A DNA stretch of 64,000 nt from assembly GCA_947625355.1 (NCBI GenBank), contig CANQOA010000001.1, forward strand, positions 62,001 to 126,000, read 5' to 3'. The translations under genes were made by a program, and so were the position numbers. Source of the stretch: an uncultured Oscillospiraceae bacterium (GTDB taxonomy: Bacteria > Bacillota > Clostridia > Oscillospirales > Oscillospiraceae). Below the pieces are notes generated by a model that saw only the letters and a program-made list of their open reading frames with translations, ran no database searches and was not told the DNA's origin. Shown here one piece after another: positions 1 through 13,535 of this stretch. The stretch's first letter is position 1; each line of letters begins with the position of its first letter.

Positions 1-1026
1 TGGGCCTATGTCCGGCTTTACGGAAAGAGCCGATGGTCGCTGTCCATGTACGACTCCAGCCTGGGTTTGATCAACAACTACATTATCCCCTATTTCGGCA
101 GCATCCGGCTGCACGAGCTGTCACCCAGGATGGTGGCATGGATGTACGGGGACCTTTTGGGACAGCAGCGCTATAACGGCAAATTCCATAAGCATCCGGG
201 AGAGCGGTTATCGCCCCACACGTTGAAAAGCGTACACAAACTCCTACACAGCGTCTTTGAACAGGCCGTACTTTGGGAATATGTGCCCAGCAATCCCTTC
301 CAGCGGGCGATCCTCCCCAAAATAAAATCTGCTCCGCAGCCATTTCTGACGCCGGAGCAGGTCCACATATTGCTGGCCAACTGCAAGGACTTGCAGTTGA
401 AATTGGCCCTCGAACTGGCATTTGCCTGTACGCTGCGAGAGGGGGAATTGCTTGCTCTGACGTGGGACGACGTTGATTGGGATGAGCACACCCTCCGTGT
501 GAACAAAACGCTCACACGGGCCAGCCGTGCCGCCATAACGGCCCTGGAGCAGCGGGACACCCTGTATATCTTCCCGTCTGTCCGCAAGAATGCCAGCACC
601 GCTCTGGTGCTGAAAGCCCCAAAGACTGATGCCAGCAACCGGATCGTCTACCTGCCGCCCACCGTGATGGGGTCGCTCCTTTTGTGGAAGGGATCGTGCG
701 GAACGCCGCCAGAAGAAGCGCCGAACTTGATCTTCACCTGCGACCGGGGACTCCCATTGCAGAACAGCTTTCTTTTGGAGCAGTTCCACGCGTTGCTAAC
801 CTCCTGCAGTCTGCCGAAGGTCACCTTCCACAGTCTGCGGCATAGCAGCATCACCTATAAGCTCATCCTCACCCACGGCAACATCAAGGCGGTGCAGGGC
901 GATTCCGGGCACGCCCAGGCAGATATGATCACCGAGGTCTACGGGCACATTCTCGACCAGCGGCGCCGCGCCAGTGCGGAGCTGTTTGAGGCGGATTTCT
1001 TTAAGGGGCAATTCCCAGTCAACTAA
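1..1026 (+). CDS. Tyrosine recombinase (phage/ICE-type integrase), 5' end outside window
   Basis: DNA strand exchange enzyme for site-specific integration and excision. The frame is open to the first base, so the N-terminus is missing; an internal Met lies at 46. The N-terminal part is a SAM-like core-binding domain. The C-terminal catalytic domain shows the expected set: Arg in LREGELLALTW, HSLRH, the later His in SGHAQ and the nucleophile Tyr in EVYGHI. The best match is the integrase group of Tn916-like and tRNA-targeting elements. CAGTCAAcTA-type repeats begin in its last codons. The tRNA-Arg remnant 1.8 kb downstream is a plausible attachment site for it (inference). Confidence 0.9.
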   Translation, partial: WAYVRLYGKSRWSLSMYDSSLGLINNYIIPYFGSIRLHELSPRMVAWMYGDLLGQQRYNGKFHKHPGERLSPHTLKSVHKLLHSVFEQAVLWEYVPSNPFQRAILPKIKSAPQPFLTPEQVHILLANCKDLQLKLALELAFACTLREGELLALTWDDVDWDEHTLRVNKTLTRASRAAITALEQRDTLYIFPSVRKNASTALVLKAPKTDASNRIVYLPPTVMGSLLLWKGSCGTPPEEAPNLIFTCDRGLPLQNSFLLEQFHALLTSCSLPKVTFHSLRHSSITYKLILTHGNIKAVQGDSGHAQADMITEVYGHILDQRRRASAELFEADFFKGQFPVN

Positions 1027-1094: not shown

Positions 1095-2558
1095 CTAAGC
1101 CCAATACGGAAGGTAGCGTCTGTTTTTATCCGCTGTGGAATCCTCTGAGACCTTGATCAAGCCAACCGCACAGGTCTCGGTCAGCAGCCGGGAGATCATC
1201 GAACGGTTCTTTGCAGGTATCGCAAACCTCTCGCGCAGAGAAGAGTTAGTCATATATTCGCGATTCACCCGTTTCAGGCAGGCATGGAGATAGCAAGCAC
1301 GTACACGATCATCCTTTGTCATATCACCAAATGTCTGATAAGCGTAGAGGATAACCTTTGTATGATTGTCGTATATCTCGATCTCCGGAGCCGGGAGCTG
1401 ATAGAATTCTGTCTGTGCCACGACCTTGTCATATCCGCTGCCTCGCTCCTCACACACGCCCACACGACGCATAAAAGAAGCCAAGCTCTCGTTTCTGGAT
1501 ATAGGCGGATGATCTATAAATCGCTCCTTTTCGATAAGCGGCGTACCAGGATTTGTGATCTCCATCCGGTCGTCAAATATCTCCACCATCGGGCTCGTGC
1601 CTTGGGCAAAGAAATTCTGGTGGATGATTGCGTTTGCGACTAGCTCACGAACCGCCAACTCCGGGTACATCGGCACTGTCCGCCTCAGCGCCTGTCCCAT
1701 GATCTCATTTTCAGGAAGCAGACCGTTGATATAGCTGATCAGTCCCTCAAAGCCATTTGCGTATCCCCTTCCTCCAATCTGTTCTTTGCTCGCAGGGGTG
1801 ATACGGCTTTTGCCCTTGTATACGATAACACGAATCGCTTTTCGTTCCAACGACGGAAAATCACGTATTCGCCTGGCAAACAAAATTGCCCCTAAATTCG
1901 TGATGCTATAAGCGCCTGCATCGTTTTTTGTGATCATCCGATCTTGCAACAGCCGTTCGATGATTCGCTTTCTTCCGCTTGGCAACTCCAGAGAGAGCAT
2001 GTCAAAGTAGGCCGGATAGTCCAAAACTCGTAGGATAAACTCCTCCGACACATTTTCCATAGCGATCAGGCTCTCAAAGGGCCGCTTCGAGAGGATCGCC
2101 CAGAGTTCACGCTCAGTATCCGGAAAATCCTTTAGCTTTTTGTTGCTTGTATCGATCCGAATATAATCTGTTCCACGGAACTTCACCGGTGAAGCATATG
2201 CAGCCGTAATTTCCAGTAACACAACACATTTTCCATCGATCTCTGTTTTGTGAAAATAAAACTGGACTTGGGGCTCAAGCTGAGTAGCGATCCACAAACT
2301 CAATCCTTGATTCCCCACCTTGGCTGTATCCGGGTCGAAGCCTGTACCGACGACCTCATGAGACTCATCATTGACGCCCCAGATCAAGAACCCATGTGGC
2401 TGGCTGAAAAGCGCAGCAGTATTGGAAAGTGAGCTCACATATTCTCCGATTGCCTGGGGATCATAATAGTTCACTTTGAACTCTATCCAAGGAAGCTCCA
2501 CACTATGACTTCTGGCCTCATCTACAATGGCAGCTATCAGATTTGCATCGAAAGGCAT
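1095..2558 (-). CDS. AlbA_2 (Schlafen-like) / HATPase_c_4 ATP-binding protein
   Basis: The 487-aa protein has an N-terminal AlbA_2 domain, the putative DNA-binding module shared with Schlafen proteins (WIEFKVNYYDP, then NTAALFSQPHGFLIWGV). A central HATPase_c_4-like region (ELAVRELVANAIIHQNF) and a C-terminal winged-helix-like segment follow. Proteins of this type are frequent accessory genes in elements and are annotated as regulators or helicase-like ATP-binding proteins; the biochemical function is not settled. The start is ATG at 2558 after GGGGGGAG, with an extended -10 upstream. The gene lies between the integrase and the tRNA-Arg remnant, so it travels with the element. A defence role is possible but not shown. 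Confidence 0.8.
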   Translation of the reverse strand: MPFDANLIAAIVDEARSHSVELPWIEFKVNYYDPQAIGEYVSSLSNTAALFSQPHGFLIWGVNDESHEVVGTGFDPDTAKVGNQGLSLWIATQLEPQVQFYFHKTEIDGKCVVLLEITAAYASPVKFRGTDYIRIDTSNKKLKDFPDTERELWAILSKRPFESLIAMENVSEEFILRVLDYPAYFDMLSLELPSGRKRIIERLLQDRMITKNDAGAYSITNLGAILFARRIRDFPSLERKAIRVIVYKGKSRITPASKEQIGGRGYANGFEGLISYINGLLPENEIMGQALRRTVPMYPELAVRELVANAIIHQNFFAQGTSPMVEIFDDRMEITNPGTPLIEKERFIDHPPISRNESLASFMRRVGVCEERGSGYDKVVAQTEFYQLPAPEIEIYDNHTKVILYAYQTFGDMTKDDRVRACYLHACLKRVNREYMTNSSLRERFAIPAKNRSMISRLLTETCAVGLIKVSEDSTADKNRRYLPYWA

Positions 2559-3014: not shown

Positions 3015-4253
3015 CTAGGACAAGAAAACTTCCTGTTCAATCGTTTTGCCGTATTGGAGTATTTTTACAGCAGCATCATAAAATCGGTCAATAGCACCAC
3101 TTTGCAGCACCCGGTCGAGTTCCTCCAGATATGCCGGCGGCCTCGACAACCCAAAACGAGCATATTGCTCCACTTCGCGGCCACTCATCCTCATCGGCTG
3201 CAGGCGAGGAAATATCCGCCGCAGCCGCTCAAACATCATAAACCCTCCCAGGTCTATATCTCCCCAGAAAAAGAGGTCAACTTCATCTGATACACACACC
3301 GCCAGCTTTTCCAATAGAAGCCGCTTTCGTGGACTCATGAACCCGCCGTGATATATCACAAGCTCTTCTCTCGCCTGTTCCGACAGCAAGTACTCTTCAT
3401 AATTTGTCTTATTCTCAATGAATGTAATGCGCCGTATGCCGTCTAATATAAACATCTCAACGGCTCCAACCGCTGTGCTGGGCAGCGCCAGCCCCGTTGG
3501 AAATAAGGGCGTCGCGTCCACCTCTCCGGCAGATGTTACGATCGTGCAGCAGCCGGACATCAAATAGTATTCCGGGTGGGCATAAATACCGAGAAATGCC
3601 AGCTTTTCCCGTTCACTCAGTTCCTCCTGCGCGCAAAGCGAGCTCAGCTCATAGTCATATCTTTCCGCTATCCTCAAAAAGTCCTTTTGGAATTCCCGCT
3701 CAAATCTCTTGCTGTTTTGAAAGCAGCGAATACTGAATGTGCGGACCGTGACAGTCTCGCCCTCCAAGCGGTCATAGCATGTCAACAGCCGGAGGATATC
3801 CTGTAGAAACCCGTCGCCTTTTCTGCAGATCGCAGGCAGTCTCCACTCCTTCTGAAGCGTCTGACAGACTGCATCCCGCCAGGCTGCGATCCATGGTGTT
3901 TTGACACCGGACAGCGCCGTCTGGATCACCCCGTACACTTTTTCTGCTGTCTGCTGCGGATGCCCACGGCCGAGCGCCTGATACGCCCTTTCAACCTGAT
4001 CCAGTTCCAGAATGACCTTGGAAAAGACCGGCTGGCCGGATATCCATTCCAGCCGGACCAGGCCCTCCGCCTCCAGTTCCTTTGCGGCCTGATTGAACCG
4101 ATCCCTGACAGCGGCGGTCTCCCGGTCATATTCCGGCAGCTCCCTCTTATCGACGCGAAGCATGACGCGCCGGTTGGAGGCGCCCGGCTGCGTCAGATGC
4201 TTGCTGTTCTCGTACTTATCGAGCAGCCGAGACAGGATCACCTCTCGCTCCAC
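3015..4253 (-). CDS. jetD: Wadjet subunit JetD (Toprim nuclease)
   Basis: The 412-aa protein has the JetD layout: an N-terminal DUF3322-like winged-helix region and a C-terminal DUF2220/Toprim nuclease. Toprim-type acidic motifs are visible in FIENKTNYEEYL and FFWGDIDLGGFMMFERL. In known Wadjet systems JetD cleaves circular DNA that the JetABC condensin complex has extruded. The start is GTG at 4253 after GGAGGTG, overlapping the jetC end by 16 bases, so translation is probably coupled. It is the last gene of the operon. About 120 bases separate its stop from the tRNA remnant. Confidence 0.9.
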   Translation of the reverse strand: MEREVILSRLLDKYENSKHLTQPGASNRRVMLRVDKRELPEYDRETAAVRDRFNQAAKELEAEGLVRLEWISGQPVFSKVILELDQVERAYQALGRGHPQQTAEKVYGVIQTALSGVKTPWIAAWRDAVCQTLQKEWRLPAICRKGDGFLQDILRLLTCYDRLEGETVTVRTFSIRCFQNSKRFEREFQKDFLRIAERYDYELSSLCAQEELSEREKLAFLGIYAHPEYYLMSGCCTIVTSAGEVDATPLFPTGLALPSTAVGAVEMFILDGIRRITFIENKTNYEEYLLSEQAREELVIYHGGFMSPRKRLLLEKLAVCVSDEVDLFFWGDIDLGGFMMFERLRRIFPRLQPMRMSGREVEQYARFGLSRPPAYLEELDRVLQSGAIDRFYDAAVKILQYGKTIEQEVFLS

Positions 4254-7200
4254 GCGCTCTTCACCTCCTTGGTATAGGGAAGCACCTGCATCGTGTAGCG
4301 CTCCCTGCAGACCAGCAGCGTACGATCCGCCTGTGGCATGATATCCGGCAGCTTGTCCGGCGGTGTGCAGATGATCGCCTGCAGATGCATCCTCCGCAGC
4401 AGCCGGACGCTTTCGATGATGCGGTCGTTGTCCATCTTATTGAACGCCTCGTCGAACACGATCAGCCGCACGGTGTTGCCAAAGCTGGACGTATCATTGA
4501 CACGGTAGAGCTGGGCAAAGGAAGCGAGGACCGCTATATAAAAAGGTGTCTGGGTCTCACCACCGGACTTCGTATTTAGCGTTTGAGACAGGAGCTGTTT
4601 GTTCCCGTTCGGGTCCGTTGTCTCCAGGTCAAATTTCAGATAGGTGCGAAAATCCGTATAGAGCTCGATGTTCTTCTGCAGCTCGCTCTGCTTCCGGGCG
4701 TTGGTCTGCGTATCGTCCGACGCCGTGATACGCCCAAACAGGTCTTCGATAAGCGGGCCGTATTTTTGCTGGAACGGCAGGGCAAAGAGGCCGCCCTCGC
4801 CCTCGATCAGTTCCGGCGCCATGATCATGTCATAATAGGCGGCGTAATCCGGGTTTCGCTCGACCTTGAATTGATACTGGTCCGTTCCAAACTGCGCCTG
4901 CTTCAGCGCCCTGTTCAGATTCTTTACCTGCCCATCTACGTTTTGTATGCCATCCCGCAGTTTGGCAAGGAAGTCATTTTGGAACTGTTCCAGCGCGCTT
5001 TCCCGGGCCTGCTTGATCTTCTCTCTGTATCGGGGCAGTTCGCTCTCTTCCAGCCGGCGGCGCTCATCGTCGAATTCCTGGTTATCCATGACATCGACGC
5101 GGAAGGAGCACGGCTGGAACTGCTGGACGTAATCCCGGCGCGCTGTAAGCAGATTGTTCTTGGTCTGGGCAACGTCATTTTGCGCACGGGGCACTTGATC
5201 CCCAAAGTTTTTCGCGACCACGGAAGCACGCTTCAGCCTTTCTATTTCCTGCTCATACCGAGGCAGCCCGACTGTATTTTGATAGTCAGAGGAAAACTCT
5301 TCCTCGATCTCCGCATCTCGGGCCATCAACCTCTCGTTACGCTCCGGGATCTTCTCATAGTCCAAATTGCCCTGCTGGTTCTTCAATTCGCCGATACGGG
5401 CCGAACACGCCTCGATCTCGCCGCGCTGCCTGCCGATCGTTTTTTCCAATTCATCTATCTGTTTATCCAGCTCATTCAGCCAGAACAGATCCAGGTGGGA
5501 CAGTTTATCCTCGATGCTTCCCAGCTCCGTGGTGATCTCAAGGCCCCGGACATAGTCGCGCTGACGCTGTTCCGCCTCCTGGACAAAGCGGCCCGTGAAC
5601 AGGAACTCGCGCCCTTTTCGACCCGTCAGTTCATCGCATATCGGCTTTAACCGCCGCTCTTCGTCGGACAGCTCTTTCTGCCTGCTCAGGAGCATTTCTA
5701 TCCGCAGATCGATGGCCTTGCGGCCTATAAAGGCGTCCTCCATTTTGGACTTCAGCATCGGCCGGGCCACATAGCCCTGGTATAACATTCCCTCTGCCGT
5801 TACTGCCGTGCGGTGACGGCGAAGCTGGCTCGTATGGGTGCAGCAGACGACCCGTCCCAACAGATAGTCGATATAACTGCGCGCCAGCGGATCGTCGGTC
5901 TGAACTTTTTTCGCCAAGCTGTCGTCCCATGCCTCCAGACGTTCCCTCTCCCTCAGCTTCCCGATATCCACGAGGCCAAAGGACTGTCTGCGATACTGAT
6001 GCTTGATCCTGTCGAAAATCTCCAGCGCATCCGTGTATACGTCAGGATCCACCAGCAAATAGAATTTCTGCGTATTCAGATACCCCTCCACCGCGCCGCG
6101 CCACATCTCCTCACCGTCGGCGATCTCCAGCACGTCGGCCAGCACATTTACGGATACCGGCCGCTTATACCGTGTTAAGAGCTGCGAATGGAGCTGGTTT
6201 TTCAGATCAAGCAGTCCCTCCGGATAATCCTTGATGTTTTTCCGCAGTTGCGCCAGGGTTCCCTGGACCCGTGACATTTCCTCCCGCAGCCCGTTCATCA
6301 CGCTCTCCATCTCATACGCCGCTTTGCGCAGACACTCGGCAAATCCCTCTGTGGCCTTCTGCGCCGTCACAAAAACCGCGACTGACCCGGAAAAGATCTC
6401 CGGCGTGCTCGTTTCCAGCGGCAGGCATGCCTTTTCCAGCACGCCGGCTGCTTCCTTTAGGGCCATGAAATGCTCATCTTGGGGCCATTGGTCCGTGAGC
6501 CGGCACAGCGACACCAGTACATTTGCCTCTCGCTTTACGGCCTGGACCGTTCGCCCGATCCCTTCCATCAGGCGCTTTTGCTCCTGCTCCAGTGTCTCCT
6601 GTTGTCTCCGCAGCCGCTCCTGTTCCTTGTAAACGTCGTTTTGAGCGCGATCGGCTATCAGTTCATTCTTCCGGCGGTCATTCTCCTGGACCTGCCTTTT
6701 CAGCTCTTCTCTTTTATTTTCTTCGTCCTCTATCTGCCGGGCACAGTCATCGCGCTCCACGGTCAATTTTTCGATCTGTTGCTCCAGCGAGACTTTTTCC
6801 GCCCACAGCGCGAGAAACCGGTGAAGCTGCAGCCGGTCCACGGCCGCCTGATACTCACGGAAATACTGCGCGATCTTCGTCAGGCGCTCTATTTTTTCCT
6901 CCTGGCGGCGGGCCAGTTCCTCATGCCGCTTGTAGTCGCGGATATTCTGCTGCATGGCCTCGATATCCGGTTTGTCCGGAATGTCGCAGATATTTTCAGT
7001 GATAAATTCCTGAATGTTGACGATGGGCCGGAAGGAGACCGCCTTTTTCATCATCCGGCACACTTGCTCATTATGTACGTTCCACTTTGCCAGCAGATCT
7101 TCCCGATAGCGTTTATTGCTGTCGTACATCTGATAGCGGGACCCCAGCTGCGCCTTCAACCATGCCCGCAGGGCGGCAATATCCATGGGTACGCCGTTGA

Positions 7201-7612
7201 CAAGATAGCAGGTCCCCGGTATGGGGCTGTCATACAGGAAAAACTGATCCCTGCGGCTGCCGTCACTGTGGCAGTCAAAGACGATCCCGGCCGTAAAGCG
7301 GCCACCGGACTGATCGTCCAAAAACTCGCAGGCGATATAGCTGGAGAAATCCTTTCCCCGCCGGGATCTGGGATTGTTGGTGTCCATATCCGCCCGGAGA
7401 TAACCGTCCAGTGTGCGCTGGGAGCTGTCATTCGCCGCCTTGTTAAAGTTTCTGGCGTTCGTCTCGCCCAGAAGAACGATCTGCAGCGCGTCAATGATCG
7501 TGGATTTGCCCGCTCCGTTTTTGCCGGTGAGAAAGTTGATGTCGTCGATCTCCAGAAGCTGCTTTGAGAAATACAGCCAGTTAATCAACAGTATCTTCGT
7601 CAGCTTCTTCAT
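4238..7612 (-). CDS. jetC: Wadjet subunit JetC (SMC-like ATPase)
   Basis: This 1124-aa SMC/MukB-like ATPase carries Walker A GKNGAGKST at residues 30-38. Long coiled-coil arms follow, with many Glu/Arg/Gln heptads, around a central hinge-like globular region. The C-terminal head has the signature region KSGGETQTPFYIAVL and Walker B LIVFDEAFNKMD. In Wadjet it is the loop-extruding motor that recognises plasmids by topology. The frame is open further upstream, but ATG at 7612 (MKKLTKILLI) is the family-like start and gives a 32-base overlap with jetB. It acts with MukF-like JetA, MukE-like JetB and the nuclease JetD. Confidence 0.93.
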   Translation of the reverse strand: MKKLTKILLINWLYFSKQLLEIDDINFLTGKNGAGKSTIIDALQIVLLGETNARNFNKAANDSSQRTLDGYLRADMDTNNPRSRRGKDFSSYIACEFLDDQSGGRFTAGIVFDCHSDGSRRDQFFLYDSPIPGTCYLVNGVPMDIAALRAWLKAQLGSRYQMYDSNKRYREDLLAKWNVHNEQVCRMMKKAVSFRPIVNIQEFITENICDIPDKPDIEAMQQNIRDYKRHEELARRQEEKIERLTKIAQYFREYQAAVDRLQLHRFLALWAEKVSLEQQIEKLTVERDDCARQIEDEENKREELKRQVQENDRRKNELIADRAQNDVYKEQERLRRQQETLEQEQKRLMEGIGRTVQAVKREANVLVSLCRLTDQWPQDEHFMALKEAAGVLEKACLPLETSTPEIFSGSVAVFVTAQKATEGFAECLRKAAYEMESVMNGLREEMSRVQGTLAQLRKNIKDYPEGLLDLKNQLHSQLLTRYKRPVSVNVLADVLEIADGEEMWRGAVEGYLNTQKFYLLVDPDVYTDALEIFDRIKHQYRRQSFGLVDIGKLRERERLEAWDDSLAKKVQTDDPLARSYIDYLLGRVVCCTHTSQLRRHRTAVTAEGMLYQGYVARPMLKSKMEDAFIGRKAIDLRIEMLLSRQKELSDEERRLKPICDELTGRKGREFLFTGRFVQEAEQRQRDYVRGLEITTELGSIEDKLSHLDLFWLNELDKQIDELEKTIGRQRGEIEACSARIGELKNQQGNLDYEKIPERNERLMARDAEIEEEFSSDYQNTVGLPRYEQEIERLKRASVVAKNFGDQVPRAQNDVAQTKNNLLTARRDYVQQFQPCSFRVDVMDNQEFDDERRRLEESELPRYREKIKQARESALEQFQNDFLAKLRDGIQNVDGQVKNLNRALKQAQFGTDQYQFKVERNPDYAAYYDMIMAPELIEGEGGLFALPFQQKYGPLIEDLFGRITASDDTQTNARKQSELQKNIELYTDFRTYLKFDLETTDPNGNKQLLSQTLNTKSGGETQTPFYIAVLASFAQLYRVNDTSSFGNTVRLIVFDEAFNKMDNDRIIESVRLLRRMHLQAIICTPPDKLPDIMPQADRTLLVCRERYTMQVLPYTKEVKSAWSER

Positions 7613-8216
7613 CGCCGTCTTCTTCCTCCTTTCGCAGCATGGAGACCACAGCGTCCAGCCGTTCGCTGGATACCACCGTGAGGATCGTTGGCAAAATGAC
7701 GAATTTGCACCCCGTTTGGCTGAATCTGCCCTGTATCCGCTGAAGGATACTGTGCTGTTCAAAGATCGTCAGCGCCCGCTTCACCTCTTCCATATTGGGG
7801 CGGGTGGAGAAGATCGCATAGTCCGCCACCACCTTATCCAGCAGATCATGGACCGTGCAAAGCACATCCTGTTCCAAACCGGTCTGATCCTGGTTCTCGT
7901 CGTAGATCATGCGCAGGGCGAGCAGGATGGCGGTGGCTTTCTGATTGAGCGCACAGCGGTTGGCCTCGTCAGTATTTACAACGTAAAAGTACCCGTTAAA
8001 ATCGTCCTTCCGCAGATCCCAGTCCAGCAGGCCGAGATAGCCCCGCACCACCGATTGATGGAGGGACAAAAACGTATAATCAGGGTTGCTGATACGCCCT
8101 TTATCCTGAACATAGATCGTTCTGACGACAAAAGTACGGCTGAGGAGCAGATTGCACACACGTGTAAACTGCTCCAATTCCTTTCCGGAAAAGCGCTCAA
8201 GTTCCGAAAGATCCAT
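7581..8216 (-). CDS. jetB: Wadjet subunit JetB (MukE-like, DUF4194)
   Basis: The 211-aa protein matches DUF4194/MukE-like kite subunits of SMC complexes, with a winged-helix segment around SLHQSVVRGYLGLLDWDL. The C-terminus is strongly acidic (EEEDGDEEADED). In Wadjet it bridges the kleisin JetA and the JetC ATPase. ATG at 8216 lies after AGAGGAG and overlaps jetA by 20 bases; its own end overlaps jetC by 32. The nested overlaps indicate a single transcript and coupled translation. Confidence 0.9.
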   Translation of the reverse strand: MDLSELERFSGKELEQFTRVCNLLLSRTFVVRTIYVQDKGRISNPDYTFLSLHQSVVRGYLGLLDWDLRKDDFNGYFYVVNTDEANRCALNQKATAILLALRMIYDENQDQTGLEQDVLCTVHDLLDKVVADYAIFSTRPNMEEVKRALTIFEQHSILQRIQGRFSQTGCKFVILPTILTVVSSERLDAVVSMLRKEEEDGDEEADEDTVD

Positions 8217-9624
8217 CTTTCTTCTCCTCTTTCCTTTCCAGCCTGAACTGCGGGATGGAATAGGCCCCCTCTTTGTAGCTTCCGTCCAACGTCTTTACAT
8301 GATAAAAGCTCTTCCGGTCCCCTCCGTTCAGGACCGCCAACAGACACATGATATAGGCGTGGTCATCTTCCGGCGCCATATCCCTCGAATACAGGACCGT
8401 CTGCTCCCCAAACCGCTGGCGTATGTATTCCTCCTGCGCGGCGCGGCTGTACGGCGTTGACAACATTTCTTCCGCCTGCTCCCGTGTTTCCTGGCTGACG
8501 CTGGCATCTTCTACTGCAACGGGTTCGGTCATCTTGCGGCGGGTCGGCCGTTTGCGTATCCACAGGCTTTTTTCCGAAAGGAATGACTGTTCATAAAGCA
8601 GAAACGCCGGCTGAATGGCCTCTGTCAGCTTACCCGCCCTCCGATTCTGAGACAACCTCGTCAGAAGATAATTCAGATTGCCACGGATGTTCTGGTCCCA
8701 ATTCGCCAGGTTCTCCAGCTTCTGCGTGGTTGCCCGCGTATACCGCCGGACCTGTTGATCGATCTCGTTCAGATAATCGCTTTCAATGCTTTCATACCGC
8801 TCCTTGACCCAAAATATCTTCTCGATCAGTTCCCCCCGGCAGGCTTCCAGCGTGTCGCGCCGCTTATCCTGCAAGGCGGCATTGGCCATAGCTAACAGGA
8901 CCCCGTCATCCTCCAGCCACTCCTCCAGAATGGTCAGGATCGGGACGCGATACTTCGGAACAGAATCCTTGATCTTCAACGGGCGGATATATGCTTCCAT
9001 GACCCGCTCGCCAAAATCGTCAAAGTGCGTTGACAGGACCTCATTGATGTCCTGCATCTCAATTTGTATTTGAAAGTACCGCCTCACGTTGTGATAGACG
9101 GTTTTCAGCATTTTTATGAGCGCCATCGTGTTATCATAGGCGCTGTATACGGCCATCATCTTTTCATAGGCCGTTCCGCTGTCCTTTGCGACTTTTAAGG
9201 ACGAGTAGGTCCCGAAAACATAGGAATATCCCCGCATAGGTGCGTCATCACGCAGTTGATGAAGCAGCTCCAAAAGCCGGCTGCTGTACCCCGGAATGTT
9301 CAGATACTCCTCGAAGCTCGTATAATCCTTTTCCCGTTCTCTCTCAAACCAACCCTTGCTCCCCAGCTTGCGGATCAGAAATCGAGCACGGCCGGAAATA
9401 TCCCGCAGCTCCTCCTCTTCTATGTCCTCATCCTCAAACGTAGCCTGCGCAAGCTGCTGCTCCAGCCTGCCCCGGAGCATCATATAGTATGTACTCTCCG
9501 GGATCTTAAGATTGCTGTCACCGTATGCCTCATACAGCACATCAAGCGCGTCAGCGTATAAAGCGCGGTTAGGCGACGCCAACACAGAAAACAGTTCCGA
9601 AGGGATAGCCTCGAATAAGCGCAC
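8197..9624 (-). CDS. jetA: Wadjet subunit JetA (MukF-like kleisin)
   Basis: The 475-aa first gene of the Wadjet operon resembles the DUF5716-type JetA family. It has an N-terminal winged-helix segment (LFEAIPSELFSVLASPNRALYADALDVL), a helical middle and a C-terminal winged-helix region. Kleisin-type subunits of this kind bridge the SMC heads. The start codon is GTG at 9624 after AGAGGTG. Only 30 bases separate it from the divergent DUF5348 gene, so the jet promoter probably lies inside that gene. The subunit order A-B-C-D with overlapping ends fits an intact system; the type II label is tentative. Confidence 0.88.
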   Translation of the reverse strand: MRLFEAIPSELFSVLASPNRALYADALDVLYEAYGDSNLKIPESTYYMMLRGRLEQQLAQATFEDEDIEEEELRDISGRARFLIRKLGSKGWFEREREKDYTSFEEYLNIPGYSSRLLELLHQLRDDAPMRGYSYVFGTYSSLKVAKDSGTAYEKMMAVYSAYDNTMALIKMLKTVYHNVRRYFQIQIEMQDINEVLSTHFDDFGERVMEAYIRPLKIKDSVPKYRVPILTILEEWLEDDGVLLAMANAALQDKRRDTLEACRGELIEKIFWVKERYESIESDYLNEIDQQVRRYTRATTQKLENLANWDQNIRGNLNYLLTRLSQNRRAGKLTEAIQPAFLLYEQSFLSEKSLWIRKRPTRRKMTEPVAVEDASVSQETREQAEEMLSTPYSRAAQEEYIRQRFGEQTVLYSRDMAPEDDHAYIMCLLAVLNGGDRKSFYHVKTLDGSYKEGAYSIPQFRLERKEEKKDGSFGT

Positions 9625-10117: not shown

Positions 10118-10165
10118 CATATTATGCTCTTTTAAACTACAATATTGAAAGGGGAAACATTCATC

Positions 10166-10462
10166 ATGAACAACAACACTATCAATACCCTGTCCGGCGC
10201 GGTCACACTTCCTGTGTTCGACTTGTTGCACGACCGCATGAATATTCGTAAGATCCGGCGCTTCTATCACGGTCTGTGCGATTTTCAGGAATCAGATCAT
10301 GCGAACATTGCTGTCACGATCATCGACGTCCTCATCCGCTTGGCCGGAAGCGAACTCCCAACCGTGTATACCGAGGTAGTGGCATCCCCAAAACTCCAGG
10401 CCATCTTCCTGGACGAGTTTCTGGCTGACTTTGAGGACATTTTGAGCGAATACGGGGTGTGA
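10166..10462 (+). CDS. Small protein of unknown function (98 aa)
   Basis: This protein is acidic and mostly helical in appearance, beginning MNNNTINTLSG. No known domain is recognised. ATG at 10166 follows GAAAGGGG. An in-frame TTG seven codons upstream is less likely because it overlaps the ribosome binding site. The gene lies between the Wadjet module and the serine recombinase. A recombination directionality factor is one speculative possibility because of size and position. The long hairpin at 10063-10117 lies in its leader. Confidence 0.55.
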   Translation: MNNNTINTLSGAVTLPVFDLLHDRMNIRKIRRFYHGLCDFQESDHANIAVTIIDVLIRLAGSELPTVYTEVVASPKLQAIFLDEFLADFEDILSEYGV

Positions 10463-10521
10463 GCGTATCTTCCCGATACGCCTGGATAAAATAACAACTG
10501 AATAGCAAAGGAGGCGGTCAT

Positions 10522-10698
10522 ATAGTCGCAAAGGAGATACAGGCCGGAGCCATCATTCTTCGCATCCACGACGAGATGTGCCGGCCGCTTGATGATATAC
10601 ACACCGCCTCCATAAGCCATATCGTCTCAGAGGCATACAGAAAACGCAGCCTTCCCTCTCCCCCGACCACAGACAACGCACCTTCCACGCCGCAATGA
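10522..10698 (+). CDS. Small element protein with ATA in start position (58 codons)
   Basis: AAAGGAGG at 10507-10514 is ideally spaced before ATA-GTC-GCA, and the frame stays open for 58 codons. The product begins with VAKEIQAGAIILRIHDEM, which resembles short proteins common on Firmicute conjugative elements (recognised from memory, unverified). No ATG, GTG or TTG serves this frame at the right spacing. Either ATA is used as a rare start or an original ATG has mutated and the gene is silent. Confidence 0.45.
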   Translation: MVAKEIQAGAIILRIHDEMCRPLDDIHTASISHIVSEAYRKRSLPSPPTTDNAPSTPQ

Positions 10699-10786
10699 CT
10701 TTGCGGCGTTTCCATTATTTGGAGCGCCTCACATATTTGACACCGCCTGCATCGTTTTCTATAATATTCTTGAAAGGAGGCCCCAA

Positions 10787-12319
10787 ATGGAGCAATACGT
10801 CATGTATCTGCGAAAATCCCGTTTTGACCGTGACTATGCCGAGTTCAGTGTAGAGGAAACACTCAAGCGCCATAAGGCGATCTTGGACAAGCTGGCGAAT
10901 GATCGTGGGTACCGTATTGCAAAAGTTTATTATGAGGTCGTTTCAGGCGAGTCCATCGCTGCCAGGCCGCAAATTCAAGAGATGCTGGCCGAGGTGAGCG
11001 AGGAGTTTTACGCGGGGGTCCTGGTGGTGGACCTGGAGCGTCTGGCCCGCGGCAACGGCGCCGACCAGGCCTACATCAGCCAGGTGTTCCAGTTTTCCGG
11101 CACCAAGATCATCACCCCCAACAAGATCTACGACCCCAGCAACGAGTTCGACGAGGAGTACTTCGAGTTTGGCCTGTTCATGAGCCGCCGGGAATACAAG
11201 ACCATCAACCGGCGTCTTATCCGGGGCCGCGAGAGCTCCGCCGCCGAGGGAAAGTACCTGGGCAGTATCGCCCCCTATGGCTACCAGCGCATCAAGCTGC
11301 CCAATGAAAAGGGCTACTCCCTGGAGCCTCTGCCGGAGGAGGCGGAGGTGGTAAAGACCGTCTTTGACATGTATCTGTCCGGCGACGGGACTGTGATGAT
11401 CGCCAATTACCTGAACGACCACCACATCCCCACCCGGCATGGAGAGCTGTGGACCTATTCCTCCATCTTCAATATGCTCAAAAACCCGGTCTACTGCGGC
11501 AAGATACGCCGTGGCTGGTGCAAGCAGGTCAAGCGCATCGAAAACGGCGAGGTCAAGCGGCATATCAAGCACCTGCAGGACCCCGGCGACTATGAGATAT
11601 TCCAGGGCCTGCACCCGCCGCTCATCAGCGAGGACATCTTCACCGAGGCCCAGCGCGTCCGCACAGAGCGCCCATCCAACGCCCATGTCAAAGAGAACTT
11701 TGAACTGCAAAACGCCTTCGCCGGTCTTATCTACTGCGCCAAGTGCGGCAAGCGCATAGGCCGCACCGTTTCCAACCGGGGCGTCCCCCGGTTCCGGTGC
11801 GTCAATCACCGCAACTGTCACACAGCCAGCTACGACTACGCCAAGACCGAGGAGCAGGTCATCTCCGCTCTGCGCCAATGGGTAAAGGGCTACACAGTGG
11901 AGATCGAAAACGTGAGCTTTGAGAGCGAGGCGGATTCCTGTCGGGACAGGATCGGGCAGCTCACCGCCGAACTGGAAAAGCTGAACGCCCAGCTGGATAA
12001 CGCCTTCGACCTGGTGGAACAGGGCCTCTACACAAAAGAGGAGTTCCGCCGGCGCAAGGAGAAGATCACCGGCAGCCAGAAAGCCGTCCAGTCCCAGCTT
12101 GACAGCCTCTATGAACGGCTGCCCGCCCTGGAGGAACAGGCGGACTTCCATGAGAACCTGATACCCCAGACGGAGGCGCTGCTGGACAGCTACGACCAGA
12201 TGGCCGCGACAGAGCGCAACAAGCTCCTGAAGGAGATACTCTACCGCATCGAGTACCGCAAGGACCATGACGGCGCGCTGGAGATCGACATCTATCCGAA
12301 GATACCCATGAAGCAGTAG
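10787..12319 (+). CDS. Large serine recombinase
   Basis: The 510-aa protein has an N-terminal resolvase domain with the catalytic serine in YLRKSR (about residue 11) and DLERLARGNG. A recombinase domain (GYQRIKL to NPVYCGKIRRGW) follows. Next come a zinc ribbon (CAKCG...CVNHRNC, about 318-345) and a coiled-coil segment. Enzymes of this class integrate and excise elements at short sites with a central dinucleotide. ATG at 10787 follows AAAGGAGG. The gene ends about 25 bases before the dyad in the spoIVB coding sequence, the usual position of an integrase at the end of its element. The first 190 bases look less GC-rich than the remainder. Confidence 0.93.
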   Translation: MEQYVMYLRKSRFDRDYAEFSVEETLKRHKAILDKLANDRGYRIAKVYYEVVSGESIAARPQIQEMLAEVSEEFYAGVLVVDLERLARGNGADQAYISQVFQFSGTKIITPNKIYDPSNEFDEEYFEFGLFMSRREYKTINRRLIRGRESSAAEGKYLGSIAPYGYQRIKLPNEKGYSLEPLPEEAEVVKTVFDMYLSGDGTVMIANYLNDHHIPTRHGELWTYSSIFNMLKNPVYCGKIRRGWCKQVKRIENGEVKRHIKHLQDPGDYEIFQGLHPPLISEDIFTEAQRVRTERPSNAHVKENFELQNAFAGLIYCAKCGKRIGRTVSNRGVPRFRCVNHRNCHTASYDYAKTEEQVISALRQWVKGYTVEIENVSFESEADSCRDRIGQLTAELEKLNAQLDNAFDLVEQGLYTKEEFRRRKEKITGSQKAVQSQLDSLYERLPALEEQADFHENLIPQTEALLDSYDQMAATERNKLLKEILYRIEYRKDHDGALEIDIYPKIPMKQ

Positions 12320-13290
12320 TCCCCTGTTGGCATGAAGGCGATGACACACACGTGTGTCACCGCGCCCACCAGCTTCCCGTTTTGGATGATCGGGCTGCCC
12401 GACATGCCCTGGACGATGCCGCCGGTGCGCTGCAAAAGCTCCGGGTCCGTCACATGGACCATCAGGTCCCGGCCGCCGCCGGACACCATGCCCGTGCGGG
12501 AGATCTCCACGTCATATTCCCGGATCTCCCGGCCTGCCACGCAGGCCAGGATCGTGGCCGGGCCCTTCACCACATCCCCCGGCGCGCCCACCGGGATGGC
12601 CGGGCGCAGCGCGCCCAGGCTGCCGCTCATGACGCCAAAAATGCCGCAGGAGGTGTTGGTGTTGATGCACCCCACCACATCGCCGCCGTCAAAGCTGCCG
12701 GCCAATTCTCCGGGCACGCCGGCGGCGCCCCGCTTCACATCCACGATCCGCGCCAGGCACACGCTGCCGTCCGCCACGGGCAGCAGCACCCCCGTCTCCA
12801 GATCGTTGACCCCATGGCCCAGGGCACCGAAAGCCCCGGTGTCCGGGTCGATATAGGTCACCGTGCCGATGCCGGTCACGCCGTCCCGCAGCCAAAGTCC
12901 CAGCCGCAGACCGCCCCCGGCCTCACGGGCCGGCGTCACCTCCACGGTGCGCAGCTGGCCGTCCCGCTTCACAGAAAGCTGTGCCGGCCCGCCGTCCATG
13001 CTCTCCACCGCGACCAGAAGATCGGCCGCGTCATGCACTGTCCGGCCCCCGATCGCCACGATCACATCCCCGGCCTGCAGGCCCGCTTCCCTGGCGGGGC
13101 ACGCCGCGCCGGACTGGGTCTGCACATCGGTGACGCCCGCCACCAGCACGCCCTCCATTTTTATTTGTATCCCCACCGTCTCCCCCACGGGGATCAGCTC
13201 CCCGTCGGCAAAGGCCGTCACCGTACAGGCGGCCGTTATCAACCACGCGGCGGCCGCTGCCAGCAGCCGCCGGCGCCAATGCTTCTCCAT
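12292..13290 (-). pseudogene. spoIVB: spoIVB (S55 peptidase), 3' end interrupted by the recombinase element
   Basis: SpoIVB is the forespore-secreted serine protease that triggers sigma-K activation. Visible are a signal/anchor segment (LLAAAAAWLITAACTVTAFA), a PDZ domain (about 55-125), the catalytic-region His in GALGHGVND, and the serine motif GIVQGMSGSPIIQNG followed by VGAVTHV. Family members then continue with a VNDPT-like tail of roughly 25-30 residues. Here the frame instead reads CVIAFMPTGDYC and stops inside the recombinase gene, overlapping it by 28 bases. ATG at 13290 follows GGAGGAAAGAGC. Without excision the protein lacks its conserved C-terminus. The usual downstream neighbour spo0A is not seen. 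Confidence 0.85.
12342..12359. other. Candidate serine-recombinase attachment site (attR)
   Basis: An 18-base dyad has perfect 8-base arms TGACACAC and GTGTGTCA around a central AC. It lies at the exact point where SpoIVB homology is lost and 22 bases past the recombinase stop codon. Inverted arms around a 2-base core are the standard architecture of serine-integrase sites. The precise crossover point is inferred. Confidence 0.6.
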
Positions 13291-13535
13291 GCTCTTTCCT
13301 CCCGTCTTTCTGCCGGCCCATTCAGTATGCGAGAAAGCGGGCGCGCAAACCGCGCTAAATTATCTCTATGCTTCCACGTGCCGCGCAAACGCCCGCTCGG
13401 AACGTCCGCCGGCGTTTGGAAAAATTTACCTCGTCGTGCTTTCCGCGCCGTTCTTTTATATGGTATCCGCCGCCGGGGAAAAAATCTGTGGCAAAATCTG
13501 CGCAAAAAGCCTTTTTCAGCGCGGCATGCGGCGGC

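Follow-up and report, generated by a model that had tools for sequence, protein, structure and literature searches.

Almost all described elements that interrupt sporulation genes lie in genes of the mother cell, which is generally explained by the death of the mother cell, the element being retained in the spore (PMC6957869). The skin element in sigK of B. subtilis, where the recombinase is SpoIVCA, and of C. difficile is prophage-like (PMC5025042, PMC6957869). The gene of its large serine recombinase (LSR) is situated at the edge, in convergent orientation to the 5' fragment of the split gene, and a short core is repeated; sigK is a mother-cell gene, and excision is limited to the mother cell. 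SPbeta in spsM of B. subtilis uses the integrase SprA and the recombination directionality factor (RDF) SprB (PMC4191935, PMC6957869). Its LSR is vegetative, the small sprB gene has a sporulation-type promoter and is expressed in the mother cell, excision rejoins spsM, and the spore genome keeps the prophage. The gin element in gerE, a mother-cell gene of B. cereus, is a non-phage island with restriction-modification genes as defence cargo and a 9-bp core; it has three LSRs, and uses GirC and GirX (PMC5595907). The yin element in yabG was described from one strain of C. botulinum. The promoter of its RDF candidate is sigma-K-like (mother cell), matching the class of the interrupted gene, and excision was observed by PCR (PMC10747680).

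In both B. subtilis and C. difficile, SpoIVB is produced by the forespore. When C. difficile loses spoIVB2, its spore yield drops by six logs, and a catalytically dead allele fails to restore the yield (PMC11392383). An earlier note on the DNA described here knew of no spoIVB-interrupting element, and this still stands: neither such an element nor a forespore-excised one is reported in the open literature searched, with most subscription papers and all preprints outside the scope of the search.

The window analyzed here is a stretch of 64,000 nucleotides from contig C1 of an uncultured Oscillospiraceae bacterium, a metagenome-assembled genome (MAG) designated as G000. The earlier note proposed that a serine-recombinase element interrupts spoIVB at this locus, that the SpoIVB frame is intact through GAVTHV and then runs into a foreign tail, and that the recombinase lies at the element edge as in skin-type elements. 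These proposals are confirmed by the following features.

12352..13290, minus strand: 5' fragment of spoIVB, encoding the PDZ and the S55 peptidase domain up to GAVTHV (Pfam PF05580, E 1e-64; TIGR02860 positions 77-381)
12292..12351, minus strand: foreign tail and stop, encoded by the element and fused to SpoIVB (read from the sequence)
12350..12351, no strand: recombination core, reading GT in the spoIVB sense, within the LSR-end att site (the 9-bp ACACACGTG is common to both junctions and conserved in relatives)
12330..12349, no strand: element arm of this att site, half of the near-palindromic attP (junction comparison)
10787..12319, plus strand: LSR, 510 aa (Pfam Resolvase, Recombinase, Zn_ribbon_recom; phrog_95 integrase; closest solved relative SPbeta SprA)

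The open reading frame at 12292-13290 (-) encodes SpoIVB (Peptidase_S55, E 1e-64, plus PDZ). It is family-like through GMSGSPIIQNGKLVGAVTHV, with GMSGSP kept in the S55 core, and after GAVTHV it continues for 18 foreign residues, CVIAFMPTGDYCFMGIFG, to the stop at 12292, which lies within the convergent LSR gene. The split point is the GT of the valine codon of THV. A search of the window's own genome located the 3' remainder of spoIVB on the same contig at C1:61425-61502 (-), corresponding to window positions -575 to -498, about 0.5 kb left of the window; it reads THVLVNDPTRGYGIFIDTMLDAAA followed by a stop. When the flanks are joined via the GT core, the frame is restored as GAVTHV-LVNDPTRGYGIFIDTMLDAAA, giving a SpoIVB of 335 aa. 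Against TIGR02860, the joined protein scores 336.1 bits and the window frame alone 301.2, with the cut-off at 305.25; the split gene is below and the rejoined gene above the family cut-off. The two characters of an intervening element, a split sporulation gene and flanks that restore its frame on joining, are thus both present.

The earlier note had expected the 3' fragment and spo0A to the left of the window. The fragment is there, but spo0A is on contig C15, and the left neighbour of the fragment is an ABC permease gene. Two circumstances that, by the note's own account, would have spoken against the interruption, a second intact spoIVB and a SpoIVB that naturally ends at this position in relatives, did not hold: the own-genome search found no second intact copy in the window's genome, and relatives without the element have full-length SpoIVB. 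The same junction at the same codon is found in independent MAGs, so neither chance nor a single misassembly explains the split.

GAVTHV is present in 30/30 intact relatives. The target is almost invariant, which fits a broad host range. The residues DP, GY and M of the lost end are likewise invariant in all 30, and since the lost C-terminus contains these family-invariant residues, the truncated SpoIVB is unlikely to work, judging from conservation. The truncated protein with its element-encoded tail could in principle still be active, in which case excision would not be needed; the S55 core with GMSGSP is kept, and the foreign tail is similar across the elements with LSR1. This reading is considered very improbable in view of the invariant residues, and because in a second LSR lineage (about 60% identical), which uses the same GT with its gene often on the 3' side, the fused frame stops only a few residues from the junction.

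The region upstream of spoIVB (window 13291-13400, -) is strongly conserved across the genus, with TTTAGCGCGGTTT...CTTTCTCGCATACTGAATGG, and in the genus it is a good match to neither the sigma-F nor the sigma-G consensus. Because of this poor match, forespore expression of SpoIVB is taken from B. subtilis and C. difficile. As a separate observation, the conserved promoter region fits every textbook sporulation sigma consensus poorly.

The element measures 12,861 bp from core to core. At its edge lies a serine recombinase gene of its own, and a short core is present at either end; the other copy of the core is at C1:61489-61490 (window -511 to -510). The attP derived from the two junctions, GGCATGATCGTGGTTACACAC-GT-GTGTGTCATCGCCTTCATGCC, would be a near-palindrome with GT at its centre, in keeping with a large serine integrase. 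The N-terminal resolvase (PF00239), Recombinase (PF07508) and zinc ribbon (PF13408) domains of the LSR are all above cut-off, and its closest solved relative is the SPbeta integrase (E 5e-45), an LSR of the same broad family. The arrangement of an edge LSR gene convergent with the spoIVB 5' fragment, together with a short core repeat, is the anatomy of skin. The remaining features of the element within the window are as follows.

1..1026, plus strand: tyrosine integrase close to the second att site, with a total of 418 aa and its start about 0.23 kb left of the window (Pfam PF00589, E 4e-17; phrog_1 integrase)
1095..2558, minus strand: Schlafen AlbA_2 / HATPase_c_4 protein, cargo (Pfam)
3015..4253, minus strand: JetD of Wadjet type I (PADLOC PDLC00525, E 1e-165)
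4238..7612, minus strand: JetC of Wadjet type I, SMC-like ATPase (PADLOC PDLC00519, 1176.7 bits)
7581..8216, minus strand: JetB of Wadjet type I (PADLOC PDLC00502, E 7e-53)
8197..9624, minus strand: JetA of Wadjet type I (PADLOC PDLC00449, E 9e-161)
10145..10462, plus strand: 105-aa open reading frame upstream of the candidate RDF, function not assigned (no family match)
10463..10493, plus strand: sigma-F-type promoter site GCGTA-N16-GGATAAAATA, 10/11 (consensus scan)
10522..10698, plus strand: candidate RDF, 58 aa, ATA start (kept in 26/26 elements)
10687..10724, plus strand: hairpin and then TTCCATTATTTGGA, a short palindrome, in the stretch from the small gene to the LSR promoter (z -4.2; also found before the LSR in relatives)
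10737..10765, plus strand: sigma-A promoter of the LSR, TTGACA-N17-TATAAT (promoter scan)

The complete Wadjet type I system, JetABCD in one gene block (3015-9624, -), is cargo of the element. Complete JetABCD is also what Wadjet type I islands contain, but here it is carried by a spoIVB-specific element whose other family members have other cargo. The element resembles gin in being a non-phage island with an LSR, a 9-bp core and defence cargo, restriction-modification in gin and Wadjet here, while gin lies in a mother-cell gene and has three LSRs. Two recombinases are present, the LSR at one end and the tyrosine integrase at the other. The latter (L007:1770-3026, window about -230 to 1026) is away from the LSR, and G009 has, near the same att site, an integrase about 87% identical to it (L053:4022-5268). 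The window element may be composite, or may have two integration systems. The short palindrome (TTTCCAnnATTTGG-like) 3' of the hairpin, at window 10709-10724 just before the -35 box of the LSR, is found in many elements and is a possible operator.

Split SpoIVB is found in 10 of the 35 genomes of the genus (G000, G003, G004, G007, G011, G014, G019, G030, G031 and G033), about 30%, with the stop at model positions 381-383; most of these genomes have a separate piece covering model positions of about 375-400. In a search of one genome per GTDB species, 29 loci had an LSR with at least 58% identity; by their record titles they all belong to clostridial MAGs, and all 29 sit at spoIVB. At 27 of them the element occupies the spoIVB attachment site, in one case (L079) a decoy copy beside an intact gene. 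The remaining two are a locus whose contig bears the 3' piece some kilobases away (L064) and the other part of an LSR split between contigs (L085). A pattern scan found no spoIVB junction beside LSRs at about 40-51% identity. Elements with both ends on one contig measure about 7.1, 12.4 and 27.5 kb, and their cargo differs between family members. LSRs are 95-99% identical between hosts whose SpoIVB proteins are about 71% identical, and therefore the elements move horizontally. All carriers examined are MAGs. By these comparisons, the window element is one member of a widespread, horizontally moving family of spoIVB-specific integrative elements.

The earlier view of the locus as a single element had not shown this membership. 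The family is not called prophages, because no clear phage structural genes were found in the 11.6 kb of an IMG/VR contig (L283; LSR 60%), whose LSR end is the same as that of L079; the prophage label was dropped on this ground. Extra spoIVB 3' ends or LSR remnants were observed near spoIVB at L056 (G051), L079/L161 (G076), L080/L162 (G077), L054/L055 (G032), L032 (G018) and L053 (G009), and in G051, G076, G032 and G018 they come after an intact spoIVB. They resemble elements accreted in tandem, or else att sites that act as decoys and so relieve the gene.

Directly upstream of the LSR, a small gene of about 60 codons is present in 26/26 elements, with identity down to about 25-35%. No other small gene accompanies the LSR throughout these 26 elements. 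Homologues of this gene are also carried by several LSR elements located elsewhere than in spoIVB, there without a forespore-type site. Since its position, its universal linkage to the LSR, its size and these homologues fit an RDF, it is probably the excision factor, or at least the best candidate for it. In the window this gene starts with ATA, as in L058 and L085, while L060 has ATG; the copy in the window may be weak or defective.

The small protein matched no family in Pfam, NCBIfam or PHROGs, and a profile search against PDB sequences gave no match. Its AlphaFold model is beta-beta-alpha (pLDDT 80, pTM 0.39). With Foldseek, the top two of 350,542 chains were RDF chains of SPbeta, 9dxd_D and 9dxd_B, as weak matches (E 4.7-5.8), and the comparison with the SPbeta RDF by VIA gave Z 2.6. 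At these values the likeness to SprB is a hint only. Sequence homology with SprB was not detected, the hhalign probability of 0.4% being not significant; the sprB sequence compared was taken from a B. subtilis plasmid record. The system thus differs from SPbeta in the detectable sequence homology of the small proteins, while sharing a vegetative LSR and a small gene with a predicted sporulation-type promoter site; as in SPbeta, excision would rejoin a sporulation gene.

In 19/26 elements the LSR is preceded by a sigma-A match of at least 11/12, which is perfect in 9, and the window LSR has a near-perfect promoter of this vegetative type. Because the SPbeta integrase is vegetative and its small RDF gene has a developmental promoter (PMC4191935), the region upstream of the small gene was scanned as well. 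The sigma-F-type consensus was GHWTA N14-16 GGNNANANTW, with a threshold of at least 10/11. The sigma consensus strings are those of B. subtilis, and the spoIIR sites for the host weight matrix were picked with the same strings.

Sigma-F-type sites at the threshold are present in 17/24 small-gene upstream regions, against 0.93 in dinucleotide shuffles, and perfect sites in 6/24, against 0.07. Perfect sigma-G sites are found upstream of three small genes, with 0.045 expected from shuffles. With one representative per upstream cluster, a sigma-F-type site is found in 13/21; one of the eight clusters below the threshold, L070, has a perfect sigma-G site. The window site has an imperfect -35 box. 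The controls gave 1/26 upstream of the LSR, 0.95% of random windows of the same element DNA, 1/102 upstream of other open reading frames, and 0/8 upstream of small-gene homologues in LSR elements at non-spoIVB sites. The forespore-type site of the small gene is conserved across elements down to 58% LSR identity.

For calibration in the genus, spoIIR, the classical sigma-F gene, was positive in 23/29 cases, gpr weakly so (5/26), and the mother-cell gene ylbJ in 0/15. With the weight matrix from host spoIIR, 14/26 small genes and 0/26 LSRs are above the 95% quantile of random sequence, with the caveat that LSR upstream regions also differ from random windows in average score. TIGR02871 was rejected as a forespore calibrator, as it corresponds to ylbJ, and became the negative control; upstream regions of SASP genes were unusable owing to ambiguous start codons. 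Taken together, the small gene is predicted to be read from forespore-type sigma-F/G promoter sites.

Excision in the mother cell as in skin, with some SpoIVB made there, would agree with the anatomy shared with skin and SPbeta, and almost all described intervening elements act in this way (PMC6957869). It is nevertheless hardly to be expected here. Among the small-gene upstream regions, sigma-E sites at 11/12 or better were found in 0/24 and the sigma-K consensus in 0/21, and sigma-A was not enriched in the 24 regions, whereas sigma-F/G sites are strongly enriched; the predicted sites thus do not indicate sigma-E/K control of the small gene. SpoIVB is moreover a forespore product in both species studied (PMC11392383). 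As in yin, the predicted promoter class of the RDF candidate follows that of the interrupted gene, but in yin this is the mother-cell class. SprB and excision of SPbeta belong to the mother cell, whereas in the present family forespore-type sites precede the candidate RDF gene and the interrupted gene acts from the forespore.

The small forespore-type gene might instead encode another forespore effector, such as a regulator delaying or blocking the maturation of spores, with the RDF elsewhere. Its product has no significant sequence match to a known RDF or family, as this reading would allow. The reading is judged improbable, since no other small gene is linked to the LSR in all 26 elements, since homologues without the forespore-type site accompany LSRs at other sites, and since RDF chains are the nearest PDB matches of the protein model.

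The reading preferred here is that the small protein is the RDF and that the element would be excised in the forespore. In the growing cell, the LSR would be made from its sigma-A promoter with the RDF absent, and the circular element (attP) would integrate into the THV codon of spoIVB (attB). In the forespore, sigma-F and sigma-G would drive the RDF, and LSR and RDF together would excise the element. Thereby spoIVB would become whole in the cell that makes its product, and the spore could mature, with an element-free chromosome and a circle. At outgrowth, the LSR would be made again with the RDF gone, and the element would re-integrate. This scheme as a whole, with vegetative integration, forespore excision and re-integration, is considered moderately probable. 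Because the forespore chromosome is the germline, the element would have to survive in the spore in circular form and insert again at outgrowth. Germline excision risks loss of the element, which is a point against the scheme. That in each life cycle the element departs from the germline once and returns to it, its circle carried in the dormant spore beside an element-free chromosome until vegetative re-insertion, is proposed more tentatively.

In favour of excision, other sporulation genes are retained beside the split spoIVB: 10/10 split genomes keep spo0A, spoIVA and spoIIR, and 9/10 keep gpr. The orphan spoIVB 3' pieces, which are not translatable alone, read open in 25/27 locus entries, one of them cut by its contig end; the other two, L065 and L067, which the search pattern for 3' pieces had missed, also read open. 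Recent insertion without excision could be another cause of the open pieces. No SASP gene (PF00269) was found in the window's MAG, while 28/35 genus genomes have one; this is either a gap in the MAG or a real loss.

These observations bear on the view that the element is a plain mobile defence island, for which spoIVB is a landing site. Carriers would lose sporulation and persist as vegetative gut cells, excision would be rare and non-developmental, and the forespore-type sites would serve another purpose. The high mobility, the Wadjet cargo, the vegetative LSR promoter and the SASP gene not found in the window's MAG are in line with it. It is regarded as unlikely, because the carriers keep spo0A, spoIVA, spoIIR and mostly gpr, the orphan 3' pieces have stayed open, elements down to 58% LSR identity retain the small gene with its forespore-type site, and the gene is split in about 30% of the genus.

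The earlier note reasoned that excision would need a forespore logic. The forespore-type sites before the probable RDF gene agree with this, but no excised junction or circle was seen in the assemblies searched, and the excised attP pattern was not found in viral contigs or genus assemblies. As assemblies show mainly the majority form, this absence is not evidence against excision.

A spoIVB family with a forespore-type candidate excision factor runs against the mother-cell rule (PMC6957869), and it raises a testable question, how an element survives excision from the germline. If the circle is indeed carried in the spore and re-inserted at outgrowth, these elements would be to the forespore what skin is to the mother cell, and an active lysogeny borne by spores, across many gut clostridia. 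They also provide spoIVB-targeting integrases with inferred attB and attP sites and a candidate RDF family as a resource, and may be a route for defence genes such as Wadjet among gut spore formers.

Two further gene contents were observed in members of the family. Genes for PemK/MazF-type toxins lie just upstream of the candidate RDF at L068:2010-2369, L074:2731-3093 and L085:9063-9572, and, as a speculation, such toxins could punish loss of the circle. The region L152:2770-13431 includes a CHASE2-SpoIIE phosphatase gene and an open reading frame of 2798 aa with MBG and FecR domains.
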